Made by a program: the position numbers and the translations under genes. A DNA stretch of 64,000 bases from the NCBI RefSeq assembly GCF_022374935.2, contig NZ_CP092430.2:2542001-2606000 (forward strand). The letters run 5' to 3'. The stretch is from Mycolicibacter virginiensis. GTDB lineage: Bacteria; Actinomycetota; Actinomycetes; Mycobacteriales; Mycobacteriaceae. Position 1 is the stretch's first letter, and each line of letters begins with the position of its first letter. Of the stretch, positions 19,560 through 63,625 are shown in pieces. The notes below the pieces were generated by a model. It had not been told where the DNA came from and ran no database searches. It saw only the letters and a program-made list of their open reading frames with translations.

Positions 19560-19571
19560 TACGAGTAGGAG

Positions 19572-34845: not shown

Positions 34846-34849
<4 letters not shown>
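30443..34849 (-). CDS. PKS-5: PpsE-like terminal polyketide synthase (KS-AT-ACP-condensation)
   Basis: A protein of 1468 residues (PpsE of M. tuberculosis is about 1490). KS (about 10-430): QTACSSALVALH, SHGTATPLGDP, KSNIGH. AT (about 530-830): FLFPGQGAQHIGMA, GHSIGE and HAFH, the usual malonyl-type motif. ACP (about 950-1025): FFDVGGDSLVA. The C-terminal ~430 residues are a condensation-like domain with a degenerate HHxxxD (LHASVGDEAS), as in PpsE, where it is tied to release and hand-over. The start is GTG 34849, overlapping the PKS-4 stop (GTGA) with AGGAG seven bases upstream; the open frame continues to 35677 inside PKS-4 and was not used. Final chain extension is inferred. Confidence 0.93.
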
Positions 34850-40271
<5,422 letters not shown>

Positions 40272-40272
<1 letters not shown>

Positions 40273-43200
40273 CAATAAATACCGCTCTCGCTACCGGTCG
40301 AAGCCGACTCGACCTGATCGAACAACTCATCCAGCACGCCGCCGGATGAGCCGAACCCCAAATCATCGTCGTCTTGCCCCGCGGTGCTGTCCGGCTCGGC
40401 ATAACGCGACGCCAGCAGTCCCACCAGGTGCGTCGTCAACGCTGAGATGCTGGGGTGATTCCACAGCATTGACGCCGACAAATCCACCCCCACCAACTGT
40501 TGTGTCTCTTTCAGAACTGTCATCGCGATCATGGAATCGAGCCCCATCTCCGGGAAGGGCTGATCCACATCGACCGCTGACGCAGATGTCCGAAGTTCGC
40601 GGGCCAGGATAGCTTGCAGCCGGACCACCAACTCCTCGCGCCGCTGATCGGCGGGGATGGTCGCCCAGTCCGGCACGCCTGCCGACGACGCGCCGGTGCC
40701 TACCTGCTCACCTGTCACAGCAGCCCCGAGCGTCGCTCCGACTTCAGAGGCCTCACCGACCAGGTCTTCGAAGAAGGTCAGATCCCGGAACTCCGGCGAG
40801 GTGGCGACCGCACGGTCGATACGCAGTCGTCCCACCCCGATCCGAGCGCCGATCAGGCCGGAGTCCGCACCAAGCACGGCGTCCAGCGCCTCGATGCCTT
40901 CGTCGGGGCTGATCGGGTCGAGGACGCTCAGCGTCATCGACCGGCCCAGGCCCACATCCGACCACTGGCCCCAGTTGACGGCGGTAGCGGGCAGGCCCGA
41001 CGCATGCCGCCACGCCATCAGTGCATCCAGCCAGGCGTTGGAGGTGGCGTATCCGAGCTGGCCGGGCAGGCCCAGCAGTGCGGCCATCGAGGAGAAGCCC
41101 ACCCACCAGTCGAGCTCGGAGGCGGCGGTGGCGGCATGCAGGCGGGCGGCGCCGACGGCCTTGGCCGACCAGACGCTCTCCAGGCTCTCCCGAGTCACCG
41201 CCGTCACCAGGCCATCGCCCAGCACGCCGGCGGCGTGCACCACGCCACGCAGCGGCTTGCCGGTCTCCTGGGCAGCGGCCACCAGTCGGTCGGCCACCCC
41301 CAGCAAGCTGATGTCGCCGGGAACAAAGACCACTTCGGTGGCGGCGGCCAGTTCATCGAGGACGGCGCGCTGCTGATCGCCGGGCTCGCTGCGGCCGTTG
41401 AGCACGATTCGCCCGGCGCCCCGGGCCACCAGCCAGCGGGCCACCACGATGCCCAGTCCGCCGAGGCCTCCGGTGAGCAGGTAGGAACCGTCGGCGCGGA
41501 CCTCGGCTTGGGGAGCCGGGGCCACGTCAGCACCGTCGAGGGTGGCCCGGGTGAGACGTTCGGTGTAGCGCTGTCCGCCGCGCCAGGCGATCACGTCGTC
41601 GCGCAGCGGGGCACCAAGTTCGGCCAGCAGGGCGTCGGCCAACGCCGCGGCGTCCGCCGAGGCGTCCAGGTCCACCAGGGTGGCGCCCAGGTCCGGTTCG
41701 TCGGCCAGCACCCGGGCAAGTTCGCCGGGGAACCGCCAGGTACGGACCACGCCCTTGAGCGCACCGACAGCCGGGTCGCCGGGCTCATCGCTGCCGAACG
41801 CCAGGCCGCCCCGGCTGACCAGCCAGAGTCGCGGTTTGGTTGACCCAGATACGCCGGACCAACCCTCGACCGCGGCGCGGGCCGTCGACGAAGCCGTCCA
41901 GATGAGCTCGCGGGCGCGGGCCAGGGCGCCGTCGGGGTCGGACCCGTCGAACCCGACCCGGTCGAGGAAGACGACGATGCCGGCCGGCGGATGTGCCGGG
42001 TCGGCGCCGGCCTGCGCTACCGCGTCAATCAGCGCGGGGCCGTCGGCGAACGGGCCGGTGAGCACCTTGCGGTTCGGCGCGGCCAACCGGGTGGCGAACT
42101 GCGCGGCCAGACCCTCGGTGTCGGTGCCGGTCTCGGAGAGCAGCAGCCAGCTGCCGGCCCCCGCACCGGTGCCCTCTGACGTGGTGACCGATTCCGCCGG
42201 AGTCCACTCAGTGGCGAAGAGCTTTTGGTCCAGCGGCACCCGCAGGGCGCGGGGATCCAGCGGGCGCAGCTCGACGCCGGTGAGTTCGGCAACGGCGGTG
42301 CCCGTGTCATCGGTCAAGACGACCCGGCCTACGGCGACCTTGTCTTCGTGACTGCTCACCTCGCTGTGGCAACGCACCTGGCGTCCGGCCGGTGCGAAGA
42401 CCCGCACCGCGGCCACCGCCGTCGGCACGTAGCCACTGTGCTCCGCGTCATCGGTCGCGATCCCCGCCGCCAGCTGCCGCAGCCCGGCATCGAGCAATGC
42501 CGGATGTAGGCGGTAGGCGGGATGGGTGGCCACAATGTCGGGCAGGGTGAGCACACTGTGCTCGGTCCCCTCGTCAGACTCCGAGGTCGACCGCTCCGCC
42601 GGCGCCGCTGCGATGTCGGCGACCGCATACCGGGTCCAGGCTTCGCCGGCCGGGCGGGCGTGGATCTCAATCCGGCTCTGGCCATCAGCCTCGCTGAACT
42701 GGGTGGTGACCTGGGTCCCGCTGTCGAGGACCAGCGGCTGTTCGATCTGCAGGCCGGTCACCGCGAGCGACTCAGCAGGTTCTCCGAGGGCCTGGCTGCC
42801 TGCCGCCACCGCCATCTCGATCAGTGCCGCGACCGACGCAACGGCCTGTCCGTGCGCCGGTTGCTCGGCCAGCCATGGCATGGCCGCCGTAAGAAGGTCG
42901 TTCTGCCAGAGGTGGCCGCCGGCGAGCAACTCGACGTGGACGCCCAGCAGCGGATGTACGTCCGGTGCCTGGCCGGCCCGCGCAGGCGCCTGCAGCCAGT
43001 GCCGGCTGTGCTGCCAGGGGGTGGTGGGCAGCTCGGCGAACCCGCCGGCCTTAGCGACGCCGGTGCCGCTGTGCTGCCCGCCGAGTTCGGTGAGCTGAAC
43101 GTGGAAGCTCAGTGTTTCGTCGTCGCCGCGGCGCAGGGTCGAGGCCACTGTCACCGGCTCGGAGGTTGCGGCTTCGGCCGTCTCGATGATCGAGTGCGTC

Positions 43201-45725
43201 AACAACGGGTGGGGGCTGATCTCGACGAAGGTGTCGTGGTCCGCCGTTGCCACGGTCACGGCCTGGCTTACCAGCGCGGGCTTGCGCACATTGGCCACCC
43301 AGTAATCCGCGTCCAATCGCGGTGTGGGACCCGCCGGATCCACCGCCGTCGAAATGAACGGGATCTGTGGCATTTGGGGGGTGATGTCGGCCAGTTCGGC
43401 ACGCAGTTCATCCAGGATCGGATCCATGAACGCGGTATGAGAAGCCACTTCCATGTTCACCCGCCGCGCAAACCGCTCCGCAGCAGCCACCGCAGCAATC
43501 ACCGCATCCACATCCGCCGGCGCACCCGCCACCACCGTCTGCCGCGGCGACAAATACCCCGCCACCTCAACACCGGGATAACCCGCCAACAACTCTTGGG
43601 CCGAGGCGGCATCCAACTCCAACAACGCCACCGCACCCTGACCGGCCTGCCGCGACATCAACCGCGACCGCACCCCGATCACCTTCAAACCCTGCTCCGG
43701 CGTCAGCGCCCCGGCCACCACCGCCGCAGACACCTCCCCCATCGAATGCCCAATCACCGCATCCGGAACAACCCCATAGGAACGCCACAACGCAGCCAAC
43801 GCCAACTGCAACCCCATGATCACCGGCTGCACCTGCGCATCACCGGAAATCTCAACGCCCTGCTCGATCACCTCACGCAGCGAAAAACCCACCTGCCGGG
43901 CAAAAACCGGCTCCAACTCATCAACAGCCGCAGCAAACACCGGCTCATCGGCCAACAACCGACGACCCATCCCCACCCAATGCGAACCCTGACCCGAAAA
44001 CACAAAAACCGGCCGTGATGCCGCCGGCCGCAGCCGGGGCTCGGTGACGCCGGCTGCAGACTCGCCGGCAGCCAGTGCGGTCAATCCGGCCACCGCGGCG
44101 GCTCGGTCGCGCGCGGATACGCCCGCGGTGTAGTTGTAGCGGCTTCGGTTCTTCCGCAAGGTCTCTGCGATGTCGGCCAGGGCCACGCCGGCGCCGTCGT
44201 TGGCCATCCACTGTGCGAGTACTTCGGCGGTGGCCGCGATACGCGCCGGCGACTTCCCCGACACCACCAACGTGCTCACCGGCACCGCAGCAGCCGCCGC
44301 GACAACCTCAGCATCCGGCGCCTGCTCAACGATCACATGCGCATTCGTGCCCGACACCCCAAACGAGGACACCCCCGCCCGACGCACACGCGACACCGCC
44401 GGCCACGCCATACCCTGACCAGCAATCTGAAACTTCGACGCCCCCACACCCGCATTCGGCGTCAACACCGAAAAATTCAAATGCCGCGGAATGAAACCCC
44501 GCTGCACCGACAACACCGTCTTGATGAACCCAGCAACACCCGACGCAGACTCCAGATGCCCCAAATTGGTCTTCACCGACCCCAACACCAACGGCGCCGA
44601 AGAACCCCGCTCACCAAACACCGCCGACAAGGCATCCAACTCAATCGGATCACCCAACGCCGTACCAGTGCCATGCGCCTCGACATAGTCGATATCGCCC
44701 GGCTCCAACCGCGCCGACGCCAACGCCGCCCGCACCACCTTCTGCTGCGCCGGACCCGACGGCACCGTCTGACCCGACGACGGCCCATCCTGATTCACCG
44801 CCGAACCCCGCACCACCGCCAGAATCCGATCACCATCACGCTGCGCATCCGACAAACGCTTGAGCACCACCACCCCAGCGCCCTCGCCACGCACGTAACC
44901 GTCGGCGGCCGCATCAAAGGTCTTGCACTGCCCATCCGGGGCCAACATCCCCCACCGCGACGTCGCAATACTGTTCTGCGGGGTCAAGATCAGGTTCACC
45001 CCGGCCGCCAACGCCTGATCCGACTCCCGACGCCGCAAACTCGCACACGCCAAATGAATCGTCACCAACGACGACGAACACGCCGTATCCACCATCATCG
45101 CCGGACCATGCACACCCAAGAAATACGACAACCGACCCGCCGCAAAATTCGGTCCGTTGCCGAATGAGAGGTACGGGTCGATGTCGCGCGGGCCGGTCCT
45201 CTCCGCTGCGAGTACGGCGTAGTCGTTGGTGGTCAGGCCGACGAAAATGCCGGTCTGGGTGCCCCGGATCGCCTCCTTGGTGATCCCGGCATGCTCCAAC
45301 GCCTCCCAGGCCACCTCCATCAACAACCGCTGCTGAGGATCCATCGCATCGGCCTCACGCGGCGAAATACCAAAAAACTCCGCGTCAAACTCCGCCGGCT
45401 GCCACGACGTCAAAAACCCACCCTCACGAGAACAAATCGTCCCCGGCACCGAATGATCCGACGAATAGAACGCATCAGCATCCCAGCGATCCGCCGGAAC
45501 CCGAACAATCCCCGAACCCTCATCACACAACAACTGCCACAACGCAGCCGGACCATCCACCCCACCAGGCAGACGACACCCCACACCCACCACCGCGATC
45601 GGCTCAGTATCGCCAGCCTCAGCAACAGCCAACCGCGCCGTCAAATCATCAATCTTGCGCAGCGCCTCAGCAACAATCGCCCGACGATCCGGCCCCCCGA
45701 CCGGCGCAGCACTCTTCTCGCTCAA
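40272..45725 (-). CDS. PKS-3: modular polyketide synthase (KS-AT-dead DH-KR-ACP), PpsC-like head
   Basis: 1817 residues. Docking head about 1-40 (RRAIVAEALRKIDDLTARLAVAE) like PpsC. KS: Cys216 in VDTACSSSL, His351 in EAHGTGT, KTNLGH. AT: Ser661 in GHSMGE, VASH at 760-763. The DH region (about 905-1100) has lost both catalytic sites: the HxxxGxxxxP motif reads QPAHGQAVAS near 953 and DxxxQ reads DAGLR near 1078. KR: TGGLGGLG (about 1418), YATSN. ACP: GLDSM (Ser about 1731). No ER, unlike PpsC. Expected product step: a hydroxyl. The start is TTG 45725, overlapping the PKS-2 stop (TTGA) after GGAGAGG. Tail VLDELFDQVESA resembles PpsA. Confidence 0.94.
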
Positions 45726-45769
45726 CTCAACCTCTCCGAAAGCTGCGCGAGCAGCTCGTCATCGCTCAT
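43357..45769 (-). repeat. PKS 5'-end duplication, copy in PKS-3 and the PKS-2 tail
   Basis: This pairs with 53491-55903 at a constant offset of 10,134 bases. Near-identical blocks: about 43357-44011, 44189-45149 and 45241-45769. They are broken by two diverged patches: about 44012-44188 (KS-AT linker) and 45150-45240 (KS residues about 165-192). The repeat starts inside the last 15 codons of PKS-2 and includes the ribosome-binding site and TTG start of PKS-3. No gaps occur, so reading frames align throughout. Confidence 0.95.
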
Positions 45770-48700
45770 GTCGTCGTAGGCGTCGGCGCTGTCCTGCTCG
45801 GCGGCTTCCGCTACCTCGGGCAGGATCGTTGCCAGGTACCCCGTCAGCGCGTCGATGGTCGGGTAGTCGAAAACCACTGCGGCCGGCAGAGTTTCGCCCA
45901 GGCTGTCGGATAGTGACCGCTGCAGGGTGACGCTCATCAGCGAATCCATGCCGGACTGGAAGAATCCGGCCGTCGGGTCCAGCGCATGGCGCGATCCCAG
46001 TCCCATCGCGGCGACGACCTGGTCGGTGACGTGTTCGCGCAACAGCTCCCCACGCTGTTCGGGTTCCGCTTCAGCCAGAACGCGGCGGAACTCGGTGCTC
46101 TGCGCCGCCGGCCCGTCAGCGGGTGCATCGACGATCAGCAGATCGTCGACGATGCGCAGCGCCGCCCGGGTGCGGTACGCGGCGGCAAGCCGCGGCCAGT
46201 CCGCCGCGACGACGGTGTGCCGCACCGCGCCCCGTGCGCCGATCACCAGTGGCAGGGCTCCGATGGCGACATCGTCGGCCATCGGCTCCAGACCGGAGTC
46301 GACAGTCACCTGGCGTTCGACATCGGATTGGGTGTCGGTCAACGACTTCCACAAGCCCCAGTTGATCGCGGTGGCCGGCAGGCCGGCCGCGCGGCGCGCG
46401 TAGGCGAAGGTGTCCAGGAAGGTGGTGGTGGCCGTGTAGTGCGCCAGCCAGCGCGACCCGGTGATGCCAGAGATCGACGAGAACAACACGAAGTAGCGCA
46501 ACGGCTGTCGCAGCGACAGCTTGTGCAACACCGCGACCACGTCGAGCTTCGGGCGGAACATGGTGGTGACGTCGTCGTCGGTCATATCGCGCAGGGTCAC
46601 CGGTCCGCCGGCGAAGGCGGCCACGTGGATGCCTTCCAGCGGCGGCAGGTCGGCGCCGAACCGATCGAACAGCGCACCCATCGCGGTCTCGTCGGCGGCG
46701 TCGGCGGCCACTGTCACCAGTGTCGTTCCGGCCGAAGCCAACTCGGTCGCCAACTCGTCGAGCACTGAGCCCGGGCGTCGGGACACCGCGACGATGGTCT
46801 TGGCGCCACTGGCCGCCAGTTGCCGTAGCAGCTGCGGACCGATGTTGCCGGTCGCACCGATCACCAGATGGCAACTGCCGGCGTCGAATTCGACCGGCGC
46901 AGCGCCGGTGGGACGGCTACCGAGCAGGCGCGGAACCCGACGAATACCGGCCCGGTAGACGACCTGGTCCTCGTTGTCGGCGGCGTCGGCCTCGGCCTGC
47001 AGATATCCGGCGACCAATGCCGCGGGGACCGACTCGTCGACATCGACGACCCTGCCCCAGATCTCGGGGTGCTCCAGGGCCAGGCTGCGGCCCAGGCCCC
47101 ACAGCACGGCGTGCGCGGGGTTGGCCCGGTCGCCTTCGCCGACAGGTTGCGCATTACGGGTCAGCAGGAACAGTTTCGCCGGGTTCGACGTCTGTTCCGC
47201 CATCGCGGTGACCAGGCGCCGGGCGGCGTTGAACGCATCGTAGGCCGGGGCGGCGCTTAGATCCGTCGCGTCCGTCGACGGTGCGTACAGCACATGGGTG
47301 GCGGCGCCCAGCGCAGTCGTCAGCGCCGTCCGGTCGGCTTCACCTGCCGTGGCGGCCAACACCGACGCGTCCAGCGCAGTGACGCCGCCGCCCTGCTTCG
47401 CGTCGATCTCGGCAACCAGCTCGTCGCCGCCGATCACCAACCAGGTCTGCTGGGTGACGGTGTCGCCGGCCGCTGCGTCAGCAGCCGGCCACGTCAGCTC
47501 ACACCACCAGTCCTCGGGTACCGCTCCCGGGCTGCCGACGGCCCGTTGTGGCTCTGCGCCTGCCGGGGCGGCGGGGCGCCGGGGGGCCGCGGTCTCAATC
47601 CAATAGCTGCTGTGCTGCCACGGGGTGGCGGGCAGCACCGGGTGCGGCTCGGGCGGGTGCGGGGTCTGCGGGGGCTGGGTGGTGTGCGTGCGGTTGAGGT
47701 TGGTGTGGAAGCTGACCGCGTCGTCGGCGTCGCGCACCAGGGTTCCGGCCGCGTGGTGATGACCGCCGAGGGCTTCCACCGTGTCAGCAATCGCGTGAGT
47801 GAGAATCGGGTGCGCACTGACCTCCACGAACGTGGTGTACTCGCCGGCCGCGGCGGCGACCGCCTGGGTCAGCAGCGCAGGCTGCCGAACGTTGCTCACC
47901 CAGTAGTCGGCGTCCAAGATCGGCATGCCACCGGCCGGCATGGCGGCTTCGGTCACCGTCGAGAAGAACGGGATGGTGGCGACTTCAGGCGTGAGGTCCG
48001 CCAGCGCTGCCCGAAGCTCGGGCAGGATCGGGTCCATCAGCGCGGTGTGCGAGGCCACTTCCATGTTGACCCGCCGGGCGAACTTGTTCTGGCCGCTGAC
48101 GGCCGCGATGACCGCGTCGACGGGCGCAACCGGCCCGGCCACCACGGTCTGCTTCGGCGAAAGGTAGCCCGCCACACTGACATCCGGGTAGTCGACCAGC
48201 AGCGCCTCGACGGCTTCGGCATCCAGGTTCAGCAGCGCCACCGCGCCCTGCCCGGCCTGCCGCGACATCAACTGCGAACGGGCAGCTATGACCCGGAACC
48301 CGTCGGCCGGGCTCAGGGCACCGGCCACCACCGCGGCGGTGACCTCGCCCATCGAGTGACCGATAACAGCGTCGGGGTGGACCCCGTAGGAGCGCCACAG
48401 CTCAGTCAGCGCCAGCTGCAGCCCCATCAGGACGGGCTGTACCTGCGCGTCGCCGCTGACCGGTTCACCGGCGGAGATCACCTGCCACAGCGAGAACCCG
48501 ACGTGTTCGACGAAAGCCGGTTCCAGCACGGCCAGTGCCCGCGCGAACGCCGGTTCGTCGGTGAGCAGCGCACGGCCCATACCGATCCAGTGCGAGCCCT
48601 GACCGGAGTACACGAAGACGGTGCCGGGGCCGCACGGGCCGTCGTGCGGACCGATGACTCCGCAGTCCTGGCCATCCGCCGAGGTACCGGCCGCCAGCGC

Positions 48701-50512
48701 CCGCAAGCCGCTGACGGCAGCATCCCGGTCGCGGGCGCAGACCGTGCCGAACAGGGGTTGGCGGGCACGGTGGTGATTGAGGGTGTGCGCGACGTCGGGC
48801 AGTTCCACACCGGCGCCGTCGCCTTCCAGCCAGTCGGCCAGGTCGCTGGCGGTAGCAGCGATCCGTTCCGGAGTCCGCGCGGAGACCACCAGGGTGGTCA
48901 CGGCCGGATCTACCTCGCGCGCCGTGATCTTGGCGGGGGGTGCCTGCTCGATGACCACGTGAGCGTTGGTGCCACCAAAGCCGAAGGAAGAGATCCCGGC
49001 GCGTCGCGGATGATCCGACGAGGGCCAGTCCTGGTGTTCGGCAACGACCTTCAAACGCATCTGCTCGAACGTGATGTGCGGGTTCGGGGTGTTGAAATGC
49101 AGGTTCTTCGGAATCCGCCCGCGTTGCACGGCCAGCACCGTCTTGATGAAGCCGACCATCCCGGCGGCCGCCTCGAGATGACCGAGGTTCGACTTGGCGG
49201 CGCCGAGCAGCAGCGGGGCCTCCGGGGAACGGCCCCGGCCCAGCACCGTGCCCAGCGCTTTGGCCTCGATCGGGTCGCCCAACAGGGTTCCGGTTCCGTG
49301 GGTTTCGACGTAGTCGACTTCCTGCGGGGCGATGCCGGCGTCGGCGTAGGCCGACCGCAGGACCGCCATTTGGGCGGCCGGGTTCGGCGCCAGCAGGCCG
49401 TTGGAGTGGCCGTCCTGGTTGATCGCCGATCCACGCACCACCGCCAGCACGCGGTCGCCGTCTTGGCGGGCGACCGACAGCCGCTTGAGCACCACAACAC
49501 CGCAGCCCTCACCTCGAACGAATCCATCGGCGTCGGCGTCGAACGCATGGCACGCACCGGTCGTCGACAACGCCCCGCTCTGGTCGAAGCCGCGGAACAC
49601 CGCGGGTGACATCAGCAGGTTCACCCCGCCGGCGATCGCGGTCTCGCACTCCCCGGTCCGCAGGCTCCGGCAGGCCAGGTGCAGCGCGACCAGCGAAGAC
49701 GAGCATGCGGTGTCCACCGTCACTGACGGGCCCCGCAGGTCCAAGAAATACGACAGCCGGTTGGCGATGATGCTCAGTGCGCCACCGGCGTTGCTCCAGG
49801 CGTCCACACTGGGCAGGTCGGCAGACGCATGGCATCCGTATTCGGTGATGCTGGCCCCGACGTACACACCGGTCTGCGATCGCCGCAGCGAGGTCGCCGG
49901 AATTCCCGCGTGCTCCAAGGCTTCCCACGCCACCTCGAGCAGCAGCCGTTGCTGCGGGTCCATCTTGACCGCTTCGCGGCTGGAGATGTCGAAGAAGTCG
50001 GCGTCGAATGCCGCGATATCGCGCAGGAACGAGCCCCAGCGGGTGGTGCGGGCGATCGCGTTGCTTGTCTCGGCTGACCCGTCGTCGAACGGCGCCCAGC
50101 GATCGGCGGGCACTTCTGTCACCGCGTTGCCGCCGTCGAGCAGGAACTGCCACATTGCGTCCGGTGAATTGATGTCACCGGGGAATCGGCACCCCAGACC
50201 GATCACCGCGATGGGCTCATCGGTGCCAAAGCGCCCGGGCTCGGGTGCCGACTCTTCGTCGGCGGACTCGGGCTCGATGAGGAACCGGGCCAGTTCCGCG
50301 ACCGACGGATGCTGCCAGAGTTCTACCGGTGAGACCTTGCGGCCGAGCAGTTCGGACAGCTCACCGCAGAGCACCACGGCGTCGCGGGATCCGACGCCCA
50401 GATCGTTGAGCGACGCGTTGAAATCGATGTCCTCGAGACTGCAACCGATGTTGGTGACCAGATAGTCGGCCAGCCAGTGGCGCAGTGCTTCTTCATCAAA
50501 TGCTGCGGTCAT
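45722..50512 (-). CDS. PKS-2: loading/first-extension polyketide synthase (ACP-KS-AT-KR-ACP)
   Basis: 1596 residues. It begins with an acyl-carrier domain (about 5-80, Ser42 in [11 protein letters not shown]), as in PpsA, the domain that receives the acyl chain from a FAAL. KS about 97-515: Cys270 in [33 protein letters not shown] about 620-920: GHSMGE, VASH. There is no DH. KR about 1210-1400 with an unusual GATGNIG in place of TGGxGxLG and [19 protein letters not shown] (Ser about 1524). The N-terminal half resembles PpsA and the C-terminal half (KR-ACP, tail [13 protein letters not shown]) resembles PpsB. It makes a beta-hydroxy chain. The start is ATG 50512, 19 bases after PKS-1. Tail probably docks to the PKS-3 or PKS-1 head. 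Confidence 0.94.
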
Positions 50513-50531
50513 GCGGGGAACTCAATTCCCA

Positions 50532-53500
50532 CTAGATCCCGTCCCATCCGGCCGGAGCCGATTCCACGCTGTCGAACAGCTCGTTCAAAACACTGTCGGT
50601 CGACTCCGGCAGCTCACCGCCTGATGCCGCCGCGTCGCCGCCGACATCGTCCTGCGGCAGCAGCTTGCCGGTCAGGTGCGCCGCCAGTGCCGCAGTTGTC
50701 GGGTGATTCCACAGCATGGTCGCCGACAGCTCCATACCGACCAGCTGTTCGATATCACGGCGGACCGCCATCGCCATCACGGAGTTCAGGCCGAGTTCGG
50801 CGAACGGCCGGTCCAGCTGCAGCTCAGCCTCCGACATGCGAAGCTCGCGCGCCAGAATGCTGCGCAACCCGATTTCCAGCTCGCTCAGTATCTCATCGGC
50901 GGGCAGCTGCGCCCAGTCTCGGACCGGTCCGGCGCCACCGGAAGCGGACTCCCCGGGCTTTCCTTCCCTGGGCAGCGGAACCATCACGGCCTGCGCGACG
51001 TCGTAGTGCTCCACGTGGTCCCAGGCGGCGAAGGCTTCCGCCGGGGTGATGGGCCGCGAGCCCATCCGTTCCAGTTCGTGCAGCACCACGTGCGCCTCGG
51101 CCCCGAAACCCAGGCCCTTCCACGCCACCCAGTCCAGGCTGACGCTGTGGCAACCCAGCTTGTGGCGGGCACGGGCCAAGCCGTCCAGGTAGGCGTTGGC
51201 ACTCGCGTAGGCGCCCTGACCAGGAACCCCGAACACCGCCCCGGCGGCCGCGGTCATGTAGAAGAAGTCCAGGCTTCCGGGCGGGAAGATCTCGTTCAGC
51301 ACCTGGGCGCCCGCGACCTTGGGCCACATGGTGTCGCGCAGCCGCTCGGCCTCCACCTCGGTGAGCAGCTGCCCCTCGGTGATACCGGCGGCGTGGATGA
51401 CGCCGCGGATCGGCGGGGCGCCGGCGGCGTCGCGGCGGGCCAACAGGTCGGTCACCGCAGCCCGGGACCCGACGTCCAGGCCGGCCACATCAACGGTGAC
51501 ACCGCGCCGCTCCAACGCCCGGATGGCGGCGATCTTGTTCCGCACGCCGGCCTCGATCTCCTCGGAGTCCCAGTCGCGCCGGGGCGGCAAGGCACTGCGG
51601 CCGGCCAACACCAGGCGGCGGGCACCGCGGTCGGCCAACCATCCGGCCATCAGCAGGCCGAGCGCTCCCATACCCCCGGTAATGAGGTAGGCGCCGTCGG
51701 GCTGGCACACCATCGGCTGGCGCTGCGGCGGACCGGAGATCGGAGTAAAAGCCGGCGTCAGGAACTGGTCGCCACGCCACACCAGGATGGACTTGGCCGG
51801 CGTGCGCAGGATGCTCGACAGCGCCGCAGCGCTGCCAGCTGCATCAGCGGTGTCATCGGTTGGCAAGTCCACCAACCCACCGCAGAGTTGCGGCTGCTCT
51901 GCCCGGATCACGCCCGCCATTCCCCACAGGCAGCTTTGGCGCACGGCAGCTGCGGAGGCGGCCTCGTGGACACCGTGGGTGACGATCCACAGGGCCGGGG
52001 GGTGCGTGTCGCGGTCGGCCAGGGCGGCCACCAGGTCGGCCACCTCGCCGGCCAGTCGGGCCGCACAGTCCAGGTCGGATTCGTCTGTGGGGACTGGGTC
52101 GGCGACATAGACGACGTTCTGGGCCTCAGCGATCCCGACGCTGTGATGCCCGACCGCGCTCAGTCCGTCGCGCAGACGGTCCGCGGCGACACCGCCACCG
52201 ACCACCGTCACGGTTCCCGGCTGACTCGGGGCCTGCAGTTCGGCGTCCCAGGGCTGCCAGTCGATCGCGTGGGCGATCGAGCTCGGGTCGTCCGAGTTGG
52301 CCACGTTGAGCACCGTGTAGCGCAGTCCCCGGATGTCGACACACTGGGCGCCGTCGGCAGTGGTCACGGCGATGTCGACGATGAGTTCGCCCTCACCACC
52401 GTCGCGCCGGTGCACGGTGACTCCGGCCCGACCGTCGGCCGGTGCGTCGCCGAAGCGGACATCGTCGACCGACGCCGGCACCATCAGCTCGGGGTTGGTG
52501 TTGTCGACCAGGCGGGCGACATGCAGAGCGGCGTCGAGCAGCGCTGCCGTGCCGGACTGTGCGGACGCGACGTCGGCACGCAAATGGGTCGCGGTGAGGC
52601 GACCGGAGGTCAGCGACCACTCGAAAGGACGCCCCTCGCTGCCCCAGGTGAGCCACAGCGCGGTCACCGCGTCGTCATCGAAGGGGGTCCCGCTGTGGCC
52701 GTTGGTGAGGCTGGAATCAACAGCGAGCCCGAGGGATTCGTTGCGCGGCGTGATGCGGGCGCTGAGGTGTTTGACCCACCGGGCGGCCGGGTCGTCGGAA
52801 ACCGACTTCGACGACACTGTCACTGATTCGCCGTCGGCGACCACCTGGATGGTCCGCGGCCGGTCGACGATGATCGGGTGCTCAAACCGGATCTCGCTGA
52901 CCGCCGAGTCTCCGCTGACTTCGAACGCCGCGTCCGAGAGGGTTTGCAGCAGCACCGACGCCGGGACCAGCTCGACCCCGTTGTTGCGGTGACTGCCGGG
53001 ATACGGCTTGGAATCCGGCGACAACCGGGCTTGCCACAGGTGGATGGTCGGCGTGCTGCCGATCTTGATGTGGGTGCCCAGCAGCCGGCCCGGCCGTGGT
53101 GCGGATTCGGCTGCGGTGATGGAACTTTCGACCACAAGCCAGTGATGGGTGTGTCGCCACGGTGTGGTCGGCAGCACCGGGTAGGACCCCGACGGGTGCG
53201 GCAGTTCGCGCGGGCTCACCGGGTGGGCGCTGTTGAGATGCTGATGGAAGGCGACGGTGTCATCGCCTTCGCGCACCAGCGTGGCGACGCTGCAGTGCGG
53301 CACCGCGTCCAGGATCTCGTCGATGGTGTGGGTAAGGATCGGATGCGGGCTGATCTCGATGAACGTGCCGTATTTGTCCCCTGCGGCAGCGACCGCCTGA
53401 TTCACCCGGGCCGGTTGGCGCACGTTGTCCGCCCAGTAGCGGGCGTCGAGCACCGGAGTGGGTCCGAGCGGATCGACCACAGTGGACAGGAACGGGATCT

Positions 53501-55859
53501 GTGGCATTTGGGGGGTGATGTCGGCCAGTTCGGCACGCAGTTCATCCAGGATCGGATCCATGAACGCGGTATGAGAAGCCACTTCCATGTTCACCCGCCG
53601 CGCAAACCGCTCCGCAGCAGCCACCGCAGCAATCACCGCATCCACATCCGCCGGCGCACCCGCCACCACCGTCTGCCGCGGCGACAAATACCCCGCCACC
53701 TCAACACCGGGATAACCCGCCAACAACTCTTGGGCCGAGGCGGCATCCAACTCCAACAACGCCACCGCACCCTGACCGGCCTGCCGCGACATCAACCGCG
53801 ACCGCACCCCGATCACCTTCAAACCCTGCTCCGGCGTCAGCGCCCCGGCCACCACCGCCGCAGACACCTCCCCCATCGAATGCCCAATCACCGCATCCGG
53901 AACAACCCCATAGGAACGCCACAACGCAGCCAACGCCAACTGCAACCCCATGATCACCGGCTGCACCTGCGCATCACCGGAAATCTCAACGCCCTGCTCG
54001 ATCACCTCACGCAGCGAAAAACCCACCTGCCGGGCAAAAACCGGCTCCAACTCATCAACAGCCGCAGCAAACACCGGCTCATCGGCCAACAACCGACGAC
54101 CCATCCCCACCCAATGCGAACCCTGACCCGAAAACACAAAAACCGTGCCGGGTCCGGGCAGCACTTCAGCGGGTTCCACCACGCCCGGTGCGGATTCACC
54201 GGCGGCCAGCGCGGCAAGCGCGGTAACGGCCTGCTCGTGATCGCGGGCGGCGATGGTGGCGAATTTCTGGTGGCGCGTGCGGTGATGGTTGAGCGCATGT
54301 GCGATGTCCGGCAGCGCGATCTCGGCGCCGTCGTTGGCCATCCACTGTGCGAGTACTTCGGCGGTGGCCGCGATACGCGCTGGCGACTTCCCCGACACCA
54401 CCAACGTGCTCACCGGCACCGCAGCAGCCGCCGCGACAACCTCAGCATCCGGCGCCTGCTCAACGATCACATGCGCATTCGTGCCCGACACCCCAAACGA
54501 GGACACCCCCGCCCGACGCACACGCGACACCGCCGGCCACGCCATACCCTGACCAGCAATCTGAAACTTCGACGCCCCCACACCCGCATTCGGCGTCAAC
54601 ACCGAAAAATTCAAATGCCGCGGAATGAAACCCCGCTGCACCGACAACACCGTCTTGATGAACCCAGCAACACCCGACGCAGACTCCAGATGCCCCAAAT
54701 TGGTCTTCACCGACCCCAACACCAACGGCGCCGAAGAACCCCGCTCACCAAACACCGCCGACAAGGCATCCAACTCAATCGGATCACCCAACGCCGTACC
54801 AGTGCCATGCGCCTCGACATAGTCGATATCGCCCGGCCCCAACCGCGCCGACGCCAACGCCGCCCGCACCACCTTCTGCTGCGCCGGACCCGACGGCACC
54901 GTCTGACCCGACGACGGCCCATCCTGATTCACCGCCGAACCCCGCACCACCGCCAGAATCCGATCACCATCACGCTGCGCATCCGACAAACGCTTGAGCA
55001 CCACCACCCCAGCGCCTTCCGAGCGGACGTAACCGTCGGCGGCCGCATCAAAGGTCTTGCACTGCCCATCCGGGGCCAACATCCCCCACCGCGACGTCGC
55101 AATACTGTTCTGCGGGGTCAAGATCAGGTTCACCCCGGCCGCCAACGCCTGATCCGACTCCCGACGCCGCAAACTCGCACACGCCAAATGAATCGTCACC
55201 AACGACGACGAACACGCCGTATCCACCATCATCGCCGGACCATGCACACCCAAGAAATACGACAACCGACCCGCCGCAAAATTAGCCGCATTTCCGAAGG
55301 GAACGTAGGGGTCGACTTCTTGTGGTCGGATCTGGCTCATGATGTCCAGCGCGTAATCATTGGTGGTCATGCCGACGAAAATGCCGGTCTGGCTGCCCCG
55401 GATCGCCTCCTTGGTGATCCCGGCATGCTCCAACGCCTCCCAGGCCACCTCCATCAACAACCGCTGCTGAGGATCCATCGCATCGGCCTCACGCGGCGAA
55501 ATACCAAAAAACTCCGCGTCAAACTCCGCCGGCTGCCACGACGTCAAAAACCCACCCTCACGAGAACAGATCGTCCCCGGCACCGAATGATCCGACGAAT
55601 AGAACGCATCAGCATCCCAGCGATCCGCCGGAACCCGAACAATCCCCGAACCCTCATCACACAACAACTGCCACAACGCGGCCGGACCATCCACCCCACC
55701 AGGCAGACGACACCCCACACCCACCACCGCGATCGGCTCAGTATCGCCGGCCTCAGCAACAGCCAACCGCGCCGTCAAATCATCAATCTTGCGCAGCGCC
55801 TCAGCAACAATCGCCCGACGATCCGGCCCCCCGACCGGCGCAGCACTCTTCTCGCTCAA
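50532..55859 (-). CDS. PKS-1: modular polyketide synthase (KS-AT-DH-like-KR-ACP), hybrid PpsC-like head and PpsA-like body
   Basis: 1775 residues. The head, KS and most of AT (to about residue 790) are almost identical to PKS-3: Cys216, His351, Ser661 in GHSMGE, VASH. After the AT it differs. A DH-like region (about 930-1190) resembles PpsA but keeps HRNNGVELVP near 956 and DAALH near 1108, so activity cannot be excluded. KR: TGGMGALG (about 1390), YASAN (about 1550). ACP: GLNSVM (Ser about 1693). Tail SVLNELFDSVESA is PpsA-like. It has no N-terminal ACP, so the FAAL should not load it. The start is TTG 55859, coupled to a 15-codon relic ORF. One residue in the KS block differs (VRSEGAG for VRGEGAG). 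Confidence 0.93.
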   Translation of the reverse strand: MSEKSAAPVGGPDRRAIVAEALRKIDDLTARLAVAEAGDTEPIAVVGVGCRLPGGVDGPAALWQLLCDEGSGIVRVPADRWDADAFYSSDHSVPGTICSREGGFLTSWQPAEFDAEFFGISPREADAMDPQQRLLMEVAWEALEHAGITKEAIRGSQTGIFVGMTTNDYALDIMSQIRPQEVDPYVPFGNAANFAAGRLSYFLGVHGPAMMVDTACSSSLVTIHLACASLRRRESDQALAAGVNLILTPQNSIATSRWGMLAPDGQCKTFDAAADGYVRSEGAGVVVLKRLSDAQRDGDRILAVVRGSAVNQDGPSSGQTVPSGPAQQKVVRAALASARLGPGDIDYVEAHGTGTALGDPIELDALSAVFGERGSSAPLVLGSVKTNLGHLESASGVAGFIKTVLSVQRGFIPRHLNFSVLTPNAGVGASKFQIAGQGMAWPAVSRVRRAGVSSFGVSGTNAHVIVEQAPDAEVVAAAAAVPVSTLVVSGKSPARIAATAEVLAQWMANDGAEIALPDIAHALNHHRTRHQKFATIAARDHEQAVTALAALAAGESAPGVVEPAEVLPGPGTVFVFSGQGSHWVGMGRRLLADEPVFAAAVDELEPVFARQVGFSLREVIEQGVEISGDAQVQPVIMGLQLALAALWRSYGVVPDAVIGHSMGEVSAAVVAGALTPEQGLKVIGVRSRLMSRQAGQGAVALLELDAASAQELLAGYPGVEVAGYLSPRQTVVAGAPADVDAVIAAVAAAERFARRVNMEVASHTAFMDPILDELRAELADITPQMPQIPFLSTVVDPLGPTPVLDARYWADNVRQPARVNQAVAAAGDKYGTFIEISPHPILTHTIDEILDAVPHCSVATLVREGDDTVAFHQHLNSAHPVSPRELPHPSGSYPVLPTTPWRHTHHWLVVESSITAAESAPRPGRLLGTHIKIGSTPTIHLWQARLSPDSKPYPGSHRNNGVELVPASVLLQTLSDAAFEVSGDSAVSEIRFEHPIIVDRPRTIQVVADGESVTVSSKSVSDDPAARWVKHLSARITPRNESLGLAVDSSLTNGHSGTPFDDDAVTALWLTWGSEGRPFEWSLTSGRLTATHLRADVASAQSGTAALLDAALHVARLVDNTNPELMVPASVDDVRFGDAPADGRAGVTVHRRDGGEGELIVDIAVTTADGAQCVDIRGLRYTVLNVANSDDPSSIAHAIDWQPWDAELQAPSQPGTVTVVGGGVAADRLRDGLSAVGHHSVGIAEAQNVVYVADPVPTDESDLDCAARLAGEVADLVAALADRDTHPPALWIVTHGVHEAASAAAVRQSCLWGMAGVIRAEQPQLCGGLVDLPTDDTADAAGSAAALSSILRTPAKSILVWRGDQFLTPAFTPISGPPQRQPMVCQPDGAYLITGGMGALGLLMAGWLADRGARRLVLAGRSALPPRRDWDSEEIEAGVRNKIAAIRALERRGVTVDVAGLDVGSRAAVTDLLARRDAAGAPPIRGVIHAAGITEGQLLTEVEAERLRDTMWPKVAGAQVLNEIFPPGSLDFFYMTAAAGAVFGVPGQGAYASANAYLDGLARARHKLGCHSVSLDWVAWKGLGFGAEAHVVLHELERMGSRPITPAEAFAAWDHVEHYDVAQAVMVPLPREGKPGESASGGAGPVRDWAQLPADEILSELEIGLRSILARELRMSEAELQLDRPFAELGLNSVMAMAVRRDIEQLVGMELSATMLWNHPTTAALAAHLTGKLLPQDDVGGDAAASGGELPESTDSVLNELFDSVESAPAGWDGI

Positions 55860-55903
55860 CTCAACCTCCCCGAGAGCCGCGCGAGCAGCTCGTCATCTGT
55901 CAT
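53491..55903 (-). repeat. PKS 5'-end duplication, copy in PKS-1
   Basis: The partner of 43357-45769 (offset 10,134). The near-identical sequence begins at the relic ORF (55903), runs through the head, KS and AT, and ends at about residue 790. Within it, coding-strand codons end mostly in G or T, unlike the C-rich third positions of the rest of the operon. Diverged patches correspond to KS residues about 165-192 and the KS-AT linker. The pattern suggests gene conversion between the two genes. Confidence 0.95.
55856..55903 (-). pseudogene. 15-codon relic of a PKS-2-type C-terminus between fadD and PKS-1
   Basis: It reads MTDDELLARLSGRLS then stop. The end of PKS-2 reads [15 protein letters not shown] then stop; 43 of 48 bases agree by my count. 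Its ATG overlaps the fadD stop (ATGA) and its stop overlaps the TTG start of PKS-1 (TTGA). It carries the GGGGAGG ribosome-binding site for PKS-1. It therefore works as a coupling cassette and marks the edge of the duplicated junction. Whether the peptide is made or matters is unknown. Confidence 0.8.
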
Positions 55904-57657
55904 ACAGACCGAGCAGTAGCATCCAGTCGGTCGAACCCATCACGCTGGTAGATCTCTACACAGCTGGAACGGCGGATCTTGCCGCTGGTCGTGATCGGGA
56001 TGGCACCCGGCGACACCAGGACCAAGTCTCCGCTCACCAGGCCGTGCGCCTTCGACAGCGCAGCCGTCACCTTGCGACGCACCTCGGTCAGCCTGTCCAG
56101 AATCTCCTCATCGGACCCCCCCTTGTTCTTGAACTCCGCGATCGTAACAAGCTGCTCGGACTGGCTGTCGGGGATCGAGACCGCGGCGACACGACCACCG
56201 GTGATCTCCTGAACGGTGGCCTCGATGTCGTCTGGGTAGTGGTTGCGCCCGTCGACGATCAGCAGGTCCTTGATCCGGCCCACGATGTAGAGCTCGCCAC
56301 CGGAGATGACGCCGAGGTCGCCGGTCATGAGCCACGGCCCCTGCGGGGTCCCCGGTGTCGGGTCGACGAGCTTGCCACCGAAGGTGGCTTCGGTGGCCTG
56401 CTGGTTGTGCCAGTAGCCCGCCGCGACGTTGGGGCCGTGTGTCCAGATCTCGCCGACTTTGCCTTCCGGGTTCTCGGTCTGGGTTTCCGGATCCACGATA
56501 CGCAGGGTGCAGGCCCGAGGAACACCGCAGCTGACCAGCTCGACGCCACCTTCGGCGCCACTGGGCTCGGCCGTACCGGCCGCCAGCTTGGTGTAGTCGA
56601 ACCGCGCGGTCGGCGGCGGATTTCCGGGAGTGTTGGACGTCAAGTAAACGCTCGCCTCGGCCAGCCCGTAACCGGGACGCAGCGCGGCGGCGTTCACGTT
56701 GAACTTGGAGAAGCGGTCGACGAAGCGTCGCAGCGTCGCGGCGTGAATCCGCTCCGCACCGAAACAGAAGGTATGCACGTTGCTCAGGTCGAGACCCGCC
56801 ATGTCCTCATCGGAGGTCCGCCGCACGGCCAGCTCGTAGGCGAAGTTCGGTCCACCGGTGAATCCGACGGGAACCTTGGCGAGTTCCTGCATCCAGCGGG
56901 CCGGCTTCGCCAGGAACGCCATCGGGCTCATGTGCACCGTGTGCACTCCCAGGACCAGCGGGTAGATGACGGTTCCGAGCAGACCCAGGTCGTGGTAGAA
57001 CGGCATCCACGACACCAGGTTGAGTCCTTCGGGCGCTTTTCCGCCGGTCAGCGCGAAGGTGTCGTCAGCCATCTGCACCATGTTCGACACGGCGTTGGCA
57101 TGAGTAACCATGACGCCGGCCGGGGTCCGGGTCGAACCCGACGTGTACTGCAGGAAGGCCACCTTGGTCTGTGCCGTCGCGCTGGGTGCTGCCACTGGCT
57201 CGGAGTCGAGGTCCAAGGCGTCGACCTCGATAACCACCGGCGGTTTTCCGCCCAGGCCCTTGATCGAGCTGGCGATGTCGCCGACAGCAGACGTGGTGGT
57301 CAGGATCGCTGCCGGGGCACTGTCCCGCAGCGCCGCCGACACCCGCTCGTCGTGCACGCCGAACATCGGCACAGGCAGCGGGACGGCAATCATTCCCGCC
57401 TCCAGCGCACCGTAGAACCCGACGATGTACTCCAGGCTCTGCGGAGCCAGGATCGCCACCCGGTCGCCCGGAGAGGCGCAGGTCGCCAGTTCTGCGGCCA
57501 CTACCCGCACGCGGTTACGCAGCTGCGACCAGGTGACGGTCTCGCGGTAGCCAGCGGGGTCGACGTCGTAGTCGATGAACGTGTACGCAGGCTCGTTCGG
57601 CTTGTCCCGTTCGAGGTTCGCCAACAGGGTCGGGATGTGCGTTTCAGTTACCGACAT
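55900..57657 (-). CDS. fatty-acyl-AMP ligase (FAAL), FadD26-like
   Basis: A 585-residue adenylate-forming enzyme. It shows the P-loop-like YTSGSTRTPAGV (about residues 172-183), LVSWMPFYHDLGL, RPGYGLAEASVYL, TGDLG, and GRIKDLLIVDGRNHYPDDIEATVQEITGG, with the C-terminal ITTSGKIRRSSC lysine. Length and motifs match the FAAL group (FadD26, about 583 residues), which activates long-chain acids as acyl-AMP and passes them to a PKS acyl-carrier domain without CoA. First gene of the operon; AAGGAG lies ten bases before ATG 57657. The stop overlaps the relic ORF start. The likely acceptor is the N-terminal ACP of PKS-2. Confidence 0.95.
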   Translation of the reverse strand: MSVTETHIPTLLANLERDKPNEPAYTFIDYDVDPAGYRETVTWSQLRNRVRVVAAELATCASPGDRVAILAPQSLEYIVGFYGALEAGMIAVPLPVPMFGVHDERVSAALRDSAPAAILTTTSAVGDIASSIKGLGGKPPVVIEVDALDLDSEPVAAPSATAQTKVAFLQYTSGSTRTPAGVMVTHANAVSNMVQMADDTFALTGGKAPEGLNLVSWMPFYHDLGLLGTVIYPLVLGVHTVHMSPMAFLAKPARWMQELAKVPVGFTGGPNFAYELAVRRTSDEDMAGLDLSNVHTFCFGAERIHAATLRRFVDRFSKFNVNAAALRPGYGLAEASVYLTSNTPGNPPPTARFDYTKLAAGTAEPSGAEGGVELVSCGVPRACTLRIVDPETQTENPEGKVGEIWTHGPNVAAGYWHNQQATEATFGGKLVDPTPGTPQGPWLMTGDLGVISGGELYIVGRIKDLLIVDGRNHYPDDIEATVQEITGGRVAAVSIPDSQSEQLVTIAEFKNKGGSDEEILDRLTEVRRKVTAALSKAHGLVSGDLVLVSPGAIPITTSGKIRRSSCVEIYQRDGFDRLDATARSV

Positions 57658-58221: not shown

Positions 58222-58938
58222 TCAGCCCTGGCAGTACTGCGCGATCTTCTGCTCGATCTCGCCGACCAGTTCCGGTAGGTGTTCGGTGAGGTAGAAGTGG
58301 TGGCCCGGCGCGGTGAACACCCGCGCGCTGAATTCGGCGGTGGTGCGCTCCGCCCAGGGGCCGACCTTCTCCGCGGTGGCGACGTCATCTTCGTCACCAT
58401 GGAACGCAAAAATCGGACAGGACACCCGGGCCTCGGGCGGGCAGTCATAGTTCGCAATGGCCTTCAGACCGCGCAGGGTCGGCAGAATCTTGGCCGCGAA
58501 CTCCTCGTTCTCCAAGAATTCGGGGTTGACTCCCGTCATAGTGCTGACGGCGTCCAGCAGGCCCCGATCGGACTCGGGGATGTTGTCGTAGCCGGCTCGT
58601 CCCGGGGCGCCCGCCGCCGACACGAACAGCGCGGCAATTCGATGTCCGTCCGCCTCGAATCGGCGCGCCACCTCGAATGCCAACAGTGCACCCATGCTGT
58701 GTCCGAAGAAGGCGACCGGCCCGTCGGTTGGAGCCGGCGGTGCGACTGTCTTGCAGACCTGGTCGGCGAGGTCTTCGATGCTGGTGAAGGCGCCCAGGTC
58801 GTGGGTTCCGCCCTTGCCCGGATACTGAACGCCGATGCGCTTGACGTCGGTGGTGAACGTCTTGGAGAACGGCACGTAATACTGCGGCGATCCGCCGGCG
58901 TGCGGGAAGATGTAGAGCTTCGGCGTACGGTCAGTCAC
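58222..58938 (-). CDS. type II thioesterase (TesA-like)
   Basis: A 238-residue alpha/beta-hydrolase thioesterase. It shows LYIFPHAGGSPQYYVPF near the start, nucleophile GHSMGALLAFEVARR (about residue 80), an Asp in HGDEDDV, and GHHFYL (catalytic His, about residue 213). It is the kind of editing or release thioesterase that partners PKS lines; TesA lies beside fadD26 in M. tuberculosis. It is upstream of fadD on the same strand but 564 bases away, so it is probably a separate transcript. The start is GTG 58938. Confidence 0.93.
   Translation of the reverse strand: MTDRTPKLYIFPHAGGSPQYYVPFSKTFTTDVKRIGVQYPGKGGTHDLGAFTSIEDLADQVCKTVAPPAPTDGPVAFFGHSMGALLAFEVARRFEADGHRIAALFVSAAGAPGRAGYDNIPESDRGLLDAVSTMTGVNPEFLENEEFAAKILPTLRGLKAIANYDCPPEARVSCPIFAFHGDEDDVATAEKVGPWAERTTAEFSARVFTAPGHHFYLTEHLPELVGEIEQKIAQYCQG

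Positions 58939-61336: not shown

Positions 61337-63625
<2,289 letters not shown>

Follow-up and report, generated by a model that had tools for sequence, protein, structure and literature searches.

Do the five polyketide synthases (PKSs) of a Mycolicibacter virginiensis locus act in the order in which their genes lie, and do they all act on a single product? The locus is encoded on the minus strand of a 64,000-nucleotide stretch of contig NZ_CP092430.2 (positions 2,542,001 to 2,606,000; the whole stretch is called the window below) and comprises genes for TesA, a fatty acyl-AMP ligase (FAAL), PKS-1 to PKS-5, and PapA5. An earlier note on this DNA had proposed that FAAL serves PKS-2, that PKS-2 passes its chain to either PKS-1 or PKS-3, and that both of these hand on to PKS-4 and then PKS-5. 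The docking classes, the ancestry of the carrier and ketosynthase (KS) domains, and the arrangement of related loci all came out as this wiring predicts, and on such sequence evidence we consider it likely that the locus encodes a forked type I PKS line of the PpsA-E family, with PKS-1 and PKS-3 as its branches.

Docking heads and tails of the locus

In the Pps system, FAALs load the N-terminal acyl carrier protein (ACP) of PpsA, the PpsA tail pairs with the PpsB head, and the PpsB tail pairs with the PpsC head. We called docking classes with profile hidden Markov models (HMMs) trained on head and tail sequences from 11 canonical PpsA-E loci, with labels taken from gene order only; a cruder regex classification missed heads. 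The classes are alpha (PpsA tail and PpsB head), beta (PpsB tail and PpsC head), gamma (PpsC tail and PpsD head), and delta (PpsD tail); the shortness of the PpsE head precluded an HMM for it.

Writing each protein as head/tail, the window holds PKS-1 beta/alpha, PKS-2 ACP/beta, PKS-3 beta/alpha, and PKS-4 alpha/delta, followed by the PpsE-like PKS-5, and the gamma pair is absent. Class margins were at least 22 bits for each head and tail of PKS-1 to PKS-4 (scores in Table 1; the PKS-4 tail, of PpsD type, scored 42 bits against 0). The earlier note had described the PKS-2 tail as PpsB-like, the PKS-1 and PKS-3 heads as PpsC-like, their tails as PpsA-like, and the PKS-4 head as PpsB-like, and had suggested comparing these segments with PpsA-E; the HMMs bore out all of these docking statements. 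PKS-1 and PKS-3 do share the docking segment RRAIVAEALRKIDDLTARL, their first 120 residues being identical, and the tails quoted for them, VLNELFDSVESA and VLDELFDQVESA, are present as given. Since the two heads fall in one class, PKS-1 and PKS-3 have the same upstream docking partner by sequence class, and both heads should bind one and the same tail.

An N-terminal ACP had been claimed for PKS-2 only, and Pfam PP-binding matches agree, with two stretches in PKS-2 and a single ACP, near the C-terminus, in each of PKS-1, PKS-3, and PKS-4. PKS-2 begins almost at once with its first ACP, with no docking segment ahead of it. These features bear on the simplest reading of the locus, in which gene order is assembly order, FAAL primes PKS-1, and PKS-1 feeds PKS-2. 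PKS-1 does lie directly after the FAAL gene, 40 nt apart, but it has no N-terminal ACP, its tail class matches the PKS-4 head only, and a pairing of that tail with the PKS-2 N-terminus, named beforehand as the finding that would speak against a fork, has little to act on. We regard assembly in gene order as extremely improbable.

In the forked line, FAAL would load a fatty acid onto the N-terminal ACP of PKS-2, which would extend the chain once and whose PpsB-type tail would then dock with PKS-1 or with PKS-3, each of which has a PpsC-type head. The PpsA-type tails of these two would deliver to PKS-4, the only matching head in the locus, PKS-5 would follow, and TesA and PapA5 would finish the product. 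We infer that docking class decides transfer and that both branches run, and the chemistry given below for the two products is likewise deduced.

Docking classes across related loci

Agreement between tail and head classes was scored at adjacent junctions in 59 loci, the counts taking in pairs with both sides called and omitting those with an uncalled side, an ACP head, or a PKS-5 head. All 30 scorable junctions matched in 16 linear loci outside the training set, 12 of them belonging to PpsA-E-like loci and 18 to lines that are shortened or rearranged; the training loci (33/33), 20 loci with the order of the window (type III, 33/33), and 12 loci of another order (type II, 20/20) matched as well, all of these loci being related and hence not independent. 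The shortened or rearranged lines run ACP/beta, beta/gamma, gamma/.. (G158, G344, G257, G125, G147, and G379), ACP/beta, beta/alpha, alpha/.. (G222 and G346), ACP/alpha, alpha/.. (M. agri, L051), or ACP/beta, beta/.. (M. komossense, L084). Judged by docking sequence, these different rearrangements all appear to follow one docking rule.

A PpsA-type tail ahead of a PpsC-type head was seen at no scorable junction of the 59 counted loci. Such a junction would be needed if all five PKSs worked in series on one product (e.g., 2 > 1 > 3 > 4 > 5), an arrangement that would have five modules, like PpsA-E, and would suit the islands of KS sequence in which PKS-1 and PKS-3 differ (described below) by giving the two KSs different incoming chains. 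However, identical heads would not order PKS-1 before PKS-3, and in the linear loci of G346 and G222 four modules make up the complete line. We therefore find a serial line decidedly improbable and continue with the forked line.

G240, L057, L063, L069, and L093 were scored but belong to no counted set. Not carried into the junction counts, as partial, broken, of another type, or duplicate, were G047, G060, G102, G207, G228, G297, L017, L018, L020-L024, L029, L030, L032, L035, L039, L041-L043, L048, L053 (= G346), L055, L072, L073, L078, L080, and L089 (= G130); no mismatching pair of called classes was seen among them, but L078 and L080 each have a tail of no known class just ahead of a beta head. 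L172/L180 (G102), L078, and L080 have two beta-headed PKSs after an ACP/beta loader, the first of which is 1172-1193 aa long, with no ketoreductase (KR) aligned and a tail of no clear class (beta at 12-14 bits in G102). This extra PKS is possibly a third kind of side branch. L057, L063, L069, and L093 are very short lines in which an ACP-headed PKS is followed directly by a PpsE-like PKS, the tail of the former being weakly delta-like (16-23 bits) in three and weakly gamma-like in L093. Candidatus M. methanotrophicum (L039 and L048) has two nearby ACP-headed loci on one chromosome, with PKS pieces broken or rearranged.

Relatives of putatively forked and of linear order

The earlier note had also suggested looking for the same arrangement in related genomes, and type III order, i.e., beta/alpha, ACP/beta, beta/alpha, alpha/delta, was found in 20 loci (19 species), some of them partial or interrupted. 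PKS-2 was called ACP/beta in 20/20, and PKS-1 and PKS-3 were each called beta/alpha in 17/20, the uncalled ones having interrupted frames. For PKS-4, an alpha head was called in 15 loci and no class in three (G366, G347, and G307), the head being out of view in two (L019 and L036). Type III loci occur in Mycolicibacter and in the more distant G354, G206, G403, G082, G183, and L036, whose proteins are 59-81% identical to those of the window. Between the window and G354, PKS-1 is 64% and PKS-3 60% identical, and both modules persist.

G346 (M. sediminis) and G222 carry a linear locus of TesA, FAAL, ACP/beta, beta/alpha, alpha/delta, a PpsE-like PKS, and PapA5, with alpha tails scoring 13 and 25 bits. 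Their sole second module is PKS-1-like, with a PpsC-type head and KS and a KR, ACP, and tail of the PpsA/PKS-1 type, and it is placed between the PKS-2 and PKS-4 homologues, where the window has PKS-3. The claim that gene order is not assembly order finds support here, as PKS-1 lies upstream of the loader in the window though a PKS-1-like module follows PKS-2 in these linear loci.

Ancestry of the domains

Ancestry was assessed by mean identity per domain. PKS-1 has a PpsC-type KS with a PpsA-type KR and ACP, and PKS-2 has a PpsA-type KS with a PpsB-type KR and ACP. PKS-3 combines a PpsC-type KS and a PpsD-type KR with an ACP nearest that of type II PKS-C, and PKS-4 has a KS nearer to PpsB (0.74) than to PpsD (0.69) with a PpsD-type KR and ACP. 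In a tree of the KR-ACP region, PKS-1 grouped with the PpsA-type sequences and PKS-3 fell on the PpsD side, several within-group nodes being weak (45-58). Because carrier and KS ancestry agrees with the docking classes, the junction units (ACP plus tail, and head plus KS) seem to travel together, matched across PKS-2 to PKS-1/PKS-3 and across PKS-1 to PKS-4.

Two simpler histories were considered. That PKS-1 is a simple recent copy of PKS-3 was rejected, as its KR-ACP half is PpsA-like and far from that of PKS-3. The other history, in which PKS-3 was the original second module and PKS-1 was added later, is weakened by G346 and G222, whose sole second module has the PKS-1/PpsA-type KR and ACP.

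Gene conversion between PKS-1 and PKS-3

Over their first ~790 residues, PKS-1 and PKS-3 are a mosaic produced by gene conversion, in which long tracts have DNA identities of 100% or close to it. In G000, the two genes are almost identical over codons 1-163, 193-512, and 572-790, with sharp islands between these tracts, and fall to background past codon ~840. Over the KS (aa 193-500), identity at 4-fold sites within a genome ranges from 0.87 (G366) to 1.00 across 8/8 Mycolicibacter genomes, compared with 0.72-0.86 between G000 and its seven Mycolicibacter orthologues and only 0.52 within G354. In Mycolicibacter, then, silent sites agree better between the paralogues of one genome than between orthologues of different species. 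In all eight Mycolicibacter genomes measured, the dock, KS, and acyltransferase (AT) are homogenised yet the halves with the dehydratase (DH), KR, and ACP differ.

In the KS tree, PKS-1 and PKS-3 of the same genome pair in G082 (support 100), G347 (100), G016 (84), G183 (no support value), and G000 (46), not in G366, and separate PKS-1 and PKS-3 clades are kept by G354, G206, G403, and L036 (support 100 and 99); some deep nodes are weak (38-77). Given this pairing in some lineages and separation in others, conversion probably arose in several lineages, after the fork existed. A stretch of ~38 nt upstream of the PKS-1 start appears to be a footprint of copying from the PKS-2/PKS-3 junction, as it aligns with the 3' end of PKS-2 in 8/11 type III genomes compared. 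The exceptions are G307, which was compared with an interrupted PKS-3 and in which the copy was also seen by eye, G347, where the predicted PKS-1 start differs and is not comparable, and G354, where the copy is absent.

The two islands, KS aa 163-192 (upstream of the active Cys) and the KS-AT linker at aa 512-571, are paralogue-specific in 5/8 genomes. The island sequence of PKS-1 resembles unconverted G354; the islands are erased in G347, G378, and G336, and partly different alleles occur in G366.

The identical heads were also considered as an assembly artefact. This was rejected, as the mosaic is present in single-contig genomes (G000, G022, G016, G366, and G324 among others) and the second halves of the genes differ fully. 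Short-contig Mycolicibacter drafts (L017, L022, L023, L024, and L029) break at about the start of the repeated PKS-1 half and close to the PKS-2/PKS-3 junction, a pattern consistent with a genuine repeat whose copies are nearly identical.

Dock, KS, and AT tracts that are identical or almost so in DNA within one genome would also suit PKS-1/PKS-3 heterodimers, in which the fork would lie within one mixed module using either reductive half. This would be compatible with a forked line, but the unconverted G354, G206, G403, and L036 hold their separate, well-supported PKS-1 and PKS-3 KS clades, and we think heterodimers very unlikely. Two separate branch modules remain the arrangement that we prefer.

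Catalytic residues and expected chemistry

In the four type III genomes aligned, PKS-1 to PKS-4 all have the KS Cys-His-His, AT Ser, and C-terminal ACP Ser. The catalytic Ser of the PKS-1 KR is replaced by Ala in 15/16 type III loci (9/9 and 6/7 further ones); this Ser is retained in 12/12 type II PKS-A and in 11/11 PpsA, three of the latter carrying a PpsB-type KR. The KR tetrad of PKS-3 is intact in 16/16. L019 is 98.8% identical to G022 over 20 kb and belongs to the same species; without it, these counts become 14/15 and 15/15, and the 20 type III loci become 19. The DH His of PKS-3 is kept in 8/16 (in G082 within a motif one residue short) and lost in 8/16, including the window. In its DH-like region, PKS-1 is similar to PpsA; Pfam DH models gave this region 35 bits each, versus 71 and 59 for PKS-3. 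PpsA leaves a hydroxyl, and by analogy the PKS-1 region would not dehydrate.

For the PKS-1 KR we infer a loss of activity. Because this KR is without its catalytic Ser while the PKS-3 tetrad is intact and the window DH His is lost, the fork probably sets a keto group (PKS-1) versus a hydroxyl (PKS-3, in the window) at one carbon. As dock, KS, and AT are shared but the reductive halves differ, it is most likely oxidation state at this carbon that the branch would set, keto or poorly reduced via PKS-1 and hydroxyl, or an alkene where the DH is intact, via PKS-3. Modules 1-4 carry the AT motif VASH, which they share with Mas and PpsD, in place of the VAPHN of PpsA-C; an AT motif of the VASH type would mean methylmalonyl.

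Points against a working fork

The head identity of PKS-1 and PKS-3 is not independent evidence for selection on docking, because the heads lie in the gene-conversion mosaic. Several observations weigh against two interchangeable, working branches. The KS island at aa 163-192 is presumably near the acyl pocket and dimer interface, as in related KS enzymes, and since the islands resist homogenisation, the two KSs may take different substrates and not be fully interchangeable; unconverted G354 likewise has different AT motifs in PKS-1 and PKS-3. PKS-4 heads in G366 (L099), G347 (L103), and G307 (L101) are diverged, at 20-25 bits for the PpsB class, with no visible matching change in their partner tails. 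G082 PKS-1 keeps its KR Ser, so the keto/hydroxyl contrast is not universal, and the DH-like region of PKS-1 retains an HxxxGxxxxP motif. In three within-Mycolicibacter comparisons, the KR had a ratio of nonsynonymous to synonymous substitution rates (dN/dS) of 0.11-0.22 (PKS-1) and 0.12-0.18 (PKS-3), and against G354 of 0.37-0.42 and 0.28-0.36, respectively. The within-Mycolicibacter values count in favour of the fork, but they also place the PKS-1 KR under purifying selection there, so that this KR may be active or structural. Lastly, the PKS-1 frame is interrupted in 3/20 type III loci (G363, G387, and G088) and the PKS-3 frame in 3/20 (G363, G165, and G307), either through error or through decay.

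The interrupted PKS-1 frames, two of them (G387 and G088) beside an intact PKS-3, would be expected if the fork exists on paper with one branch working, PKS-1 being a relic or minor side branch and PKS-3, which sits in the collinear place, having taken over the second step. The missing KR Ser in nearly all PKS-1 sequences points the same way. On the other hand, both head and tail of PKS-1 were still called in most type III loci, its catalytic KS, AT, and ACP residues are present in the four aligned sequences, and its dN/dS is 0.10-0.34 over all five regions (two Mycolicibacter comparisons involving G000). A single working branch seems to us unlikely, though less so than the other alternatives, and we retain the forked line with two branches. 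As a separate observation, PKS-1 is interrupted and PKS-3 intact in G088 (L111/L112) and G387 (L156), with the reverse in G165 and G307; in G088 and G387, one branch is perhaps being lost.

Type II loci

The type II set consists of twelve mycobacterial loci, including those of G019 (M. kyogaense), G003 (a metagenome-assembled genome), and M. pyrenivorans. Their order is TesA, FAAL1, A (ACP/alpha), FAAL2, B (ACP/beta), C (beta/alpha), D (alpha/delta), and E, with these classes called in 12/12 for A, 11/12 for B, 8/12 for C (the rest being beta/uncalled), and 12/12 for D; the PKS-C tails are weak, at 8-23 bits. L005/L006, L007/L008, and L115-L134 are examples in which two FAAL genes are each followed by an ACP-headed PKS, with tails of different class (alpha and beta). 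By these classes, PKS-D, the homologue of PKS-4, would be fed by A directly and by B through C, such that two loaders would converge on one hub.

Forking could then be a recurrent design. In type III, one loader would feed two second modules kept interchangeable by recurring conversion of dock, KS, and AT, giving two lipids that differ at one carbon; in type II, two FAAL-loader pairs would feed one PKS-4 homologue. We offer this broader view tentatively, leaning slightly against it.

The locus and its neighbourhood

The host genome assembly is one contig of 4.98 Mb and holds two further PKS regions elsewhere. By its sequence, the genome appears to belong to Mycolicibacter, in the M. terrae complex; at the DNA level, the PKS-2 gene is 91-96% identical to loci L017, L018, L019, and L021 (M. 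heraklionensis, M. icosiumassiliensis, and a Mycobacterium). From FAAL through PapA5, neighbouring genes overlap or lie at most 40 nt apart, and a single operon is therefore plausible, as are two related products from it. The FAAL scored 630 bits against the PDB sequence of FadD23 and 498 bits against that of FadD28. The PapA5-like protein scored 613 bits against the NCBIfam phthiocerol/phthiodiolone dimycocerosyl transferase model NF006790, under its cut-off of 716.

Table 1. Features of the probably forked PKS locus and their positions in the window. Docking scores are given as bits for the assigned class versus the next class.
Feature	Position	Strand	Basis
TesA-like type II thioesterase	58222..58938	-	Pfam Thioesterase PF00975, 159 bits
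FAAL, FadD23/FadD28 kind	55900..57657	-	NCBIfam fatty-acid--AMP ligase NF004509, 867 bits (cut-off 775)
Copy of PKS-2 3' end (PKS-2/PKS-3 junction), ~38 nt, upstream of PKS-1 start	55860..55897	-	Alignment
PKS-1, KS-AT-(DH-like)-KR-ACP, 1775 aa, predicted branch module 1	50532..55859	-	Pfam, docking HMMs, domain ancestry
PKS-1 docking head, PpsC type	55740..55859	-	65 vs 4 bits
PKS-1 half homogenised with PKS-3 (dock, KS, AT), two divergent islands	53490..55859	-	Within-genome comparison
PKS-1 KR, PpsA-type ancestry, catalytic Ser to Ala	51117..51695	-	Pfam, ancestry, alignment
PKS-1 docking tail, PpsA type	50532..50600	-	25 vs 0 bits
PKS-2, ACP-KS-AT-KR-ACP, 1596 aa, predicted loading and first extension module	45722..50512	-	Pfam
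PKS-2 N-terminal ACP, expected FAAL acceptor	50279..50476	-	Pfam PP-binding, residues 13-78; PpsA ACP HMM, 118 bits
PKS-2 docking tail, PpsB type	45722..45778	-	73 vs 7 bits
PKS-3, KS-AT-DH-KR-ACP, 1817 aa, predicted branch module 2	40272..45725	-	Pfam, docking HMMs
PKS-3 docking head, PpsC type, same as PKS-1	45606..45725	-	65 vs 4 bits
PKS-3 half homogenised with PKS-1	43356..45725	-	Within-genome comparison
PKS-3 KR, PpsD-type ancestry, K-S-Y-N intact	40956..41489	-	Pfam, ancestry, alignment
PKS-3 docking tail, PpsA type	40272..40343	-	24 vs 2 bits
PKS-4, KS-AT-DH-KR-ACP, PpsD-like, putative hub for both branches	34846..40275	-	Pfam, docking HMMs, ancestry
PKS-4 docking head, PpsB type	40162..40275	-	41 vs 4 bits
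PKS-5, KS-AT-ACP-condensation, PpsE-like	30443..34849	-	Pfam; start set by heads of relatives
PapA5-like acyltransferase	29160..30416	-	Pfam PapA_C, 206 bits

Past PapA5, at window positions 9530-22475, lie genes for an MMPL transporter (9530-12568), a flavin oxidoreductase, an AurF-like N-oxygenase (14342-15427), two methyltransferases, a P450 (16470-17828), short-chain dehydrogenases/reductases, and a PE-PPE-domain protein (21384-22475), which maybe represent tailoring functions or a second lipid cluster. The flanks of the locus (59021-63625 and 4712-7936) carry genes for methylmalonyl-CoA mutase, MeaB, and a beta-lactamase-family protein at one end and for a class I tRNA synthetase at the opposite end. 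The pps genes of M. tuberculosis sit in a different genomic place than between these flanks.

Comparison with known systems and significance

The locus resembles the PpsA-E line for phthiocerol lipids (phthiocerol dimycocerosates and phenolic glycolipids, PDIM/PGL) in having TesA, FAAL, an ACP-headed loader, single-module PKSs, a PpsE-like last PKS with a condensation domain, and a PapA5-like enzyme, and in drawing its alpha, beta, and delta docking classes from the same family. Unlike PpsA-E, it is not collinear from A to E with alpha, beta, gamma, and delta in order; its heads and tails are recombined between proteins, two parallel second modules are present, and four extension steps per product are predicted. 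A PpsC-type DH-ER-KR module was not found, as no enoylreductase (ER) family is among the Pfam matches of PKS-1 to PKS-5 and the NAD motif of the PpsC ER is absent. Ordinary phthiocerol was rejected as the product on the grounds of the missing ER, the missing gamma pair, and the different AT motif. PDIM and PGL converge on PpsA, with two starters entering one first module and two feeds into one Pps line; here, by comparison, one loader would feed two alternative second modules.

The nearest precedent found is the bifurcated nonribosomal peptide synthetase (NRPS) for wollamide and desotamide, in which duplicated WolG1 and WolG2 compete for one upstream subunit after intragenomic recombination and both products are reported (PMC9205934). 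Both systems have two paralogous subunits with one upstream partner, assigned here by docking sequence class. Unlike the NRPS fork, which lies at the last subunit and does not rejoin, the PKS branches would rejoin at PKS-4, the forked order is common to many species, and gene conversion probably recurred. The paralogues here differ, by sequence, in KR and ACP ancestry and in the Ser-to-Ala change of the PKS-1 KR.

Concerted evolution in biosynthetic clusters is reportedly discussed in one paper (PMC4256081). No description of a Pps-type fork, of this arrangement, of a Pps docking code, or of such lipids from the M. terrae complex was found in the open-licence literature searched, so that this absence proves little. 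Natural forked modular lines nevertheless seem rare in print, the one found being an NRPS. The system comes with natural controls, namely linear relatives that have a single second module, forked relatives in which gene conversion is present or absent, and a simple docking code across dozens of loci. Through it, one could test directly if a chain is routed by docking class alone. It also suggests that evolution swaps ACP-tail and head-KS units with the junctions kept matched, as PKS engineers attempt to do, and it warns that Pps-type clusters are not necessarily readable in gene order. If the forked reading is true, the cell could make two lipids from one operon, differing at one carbon.

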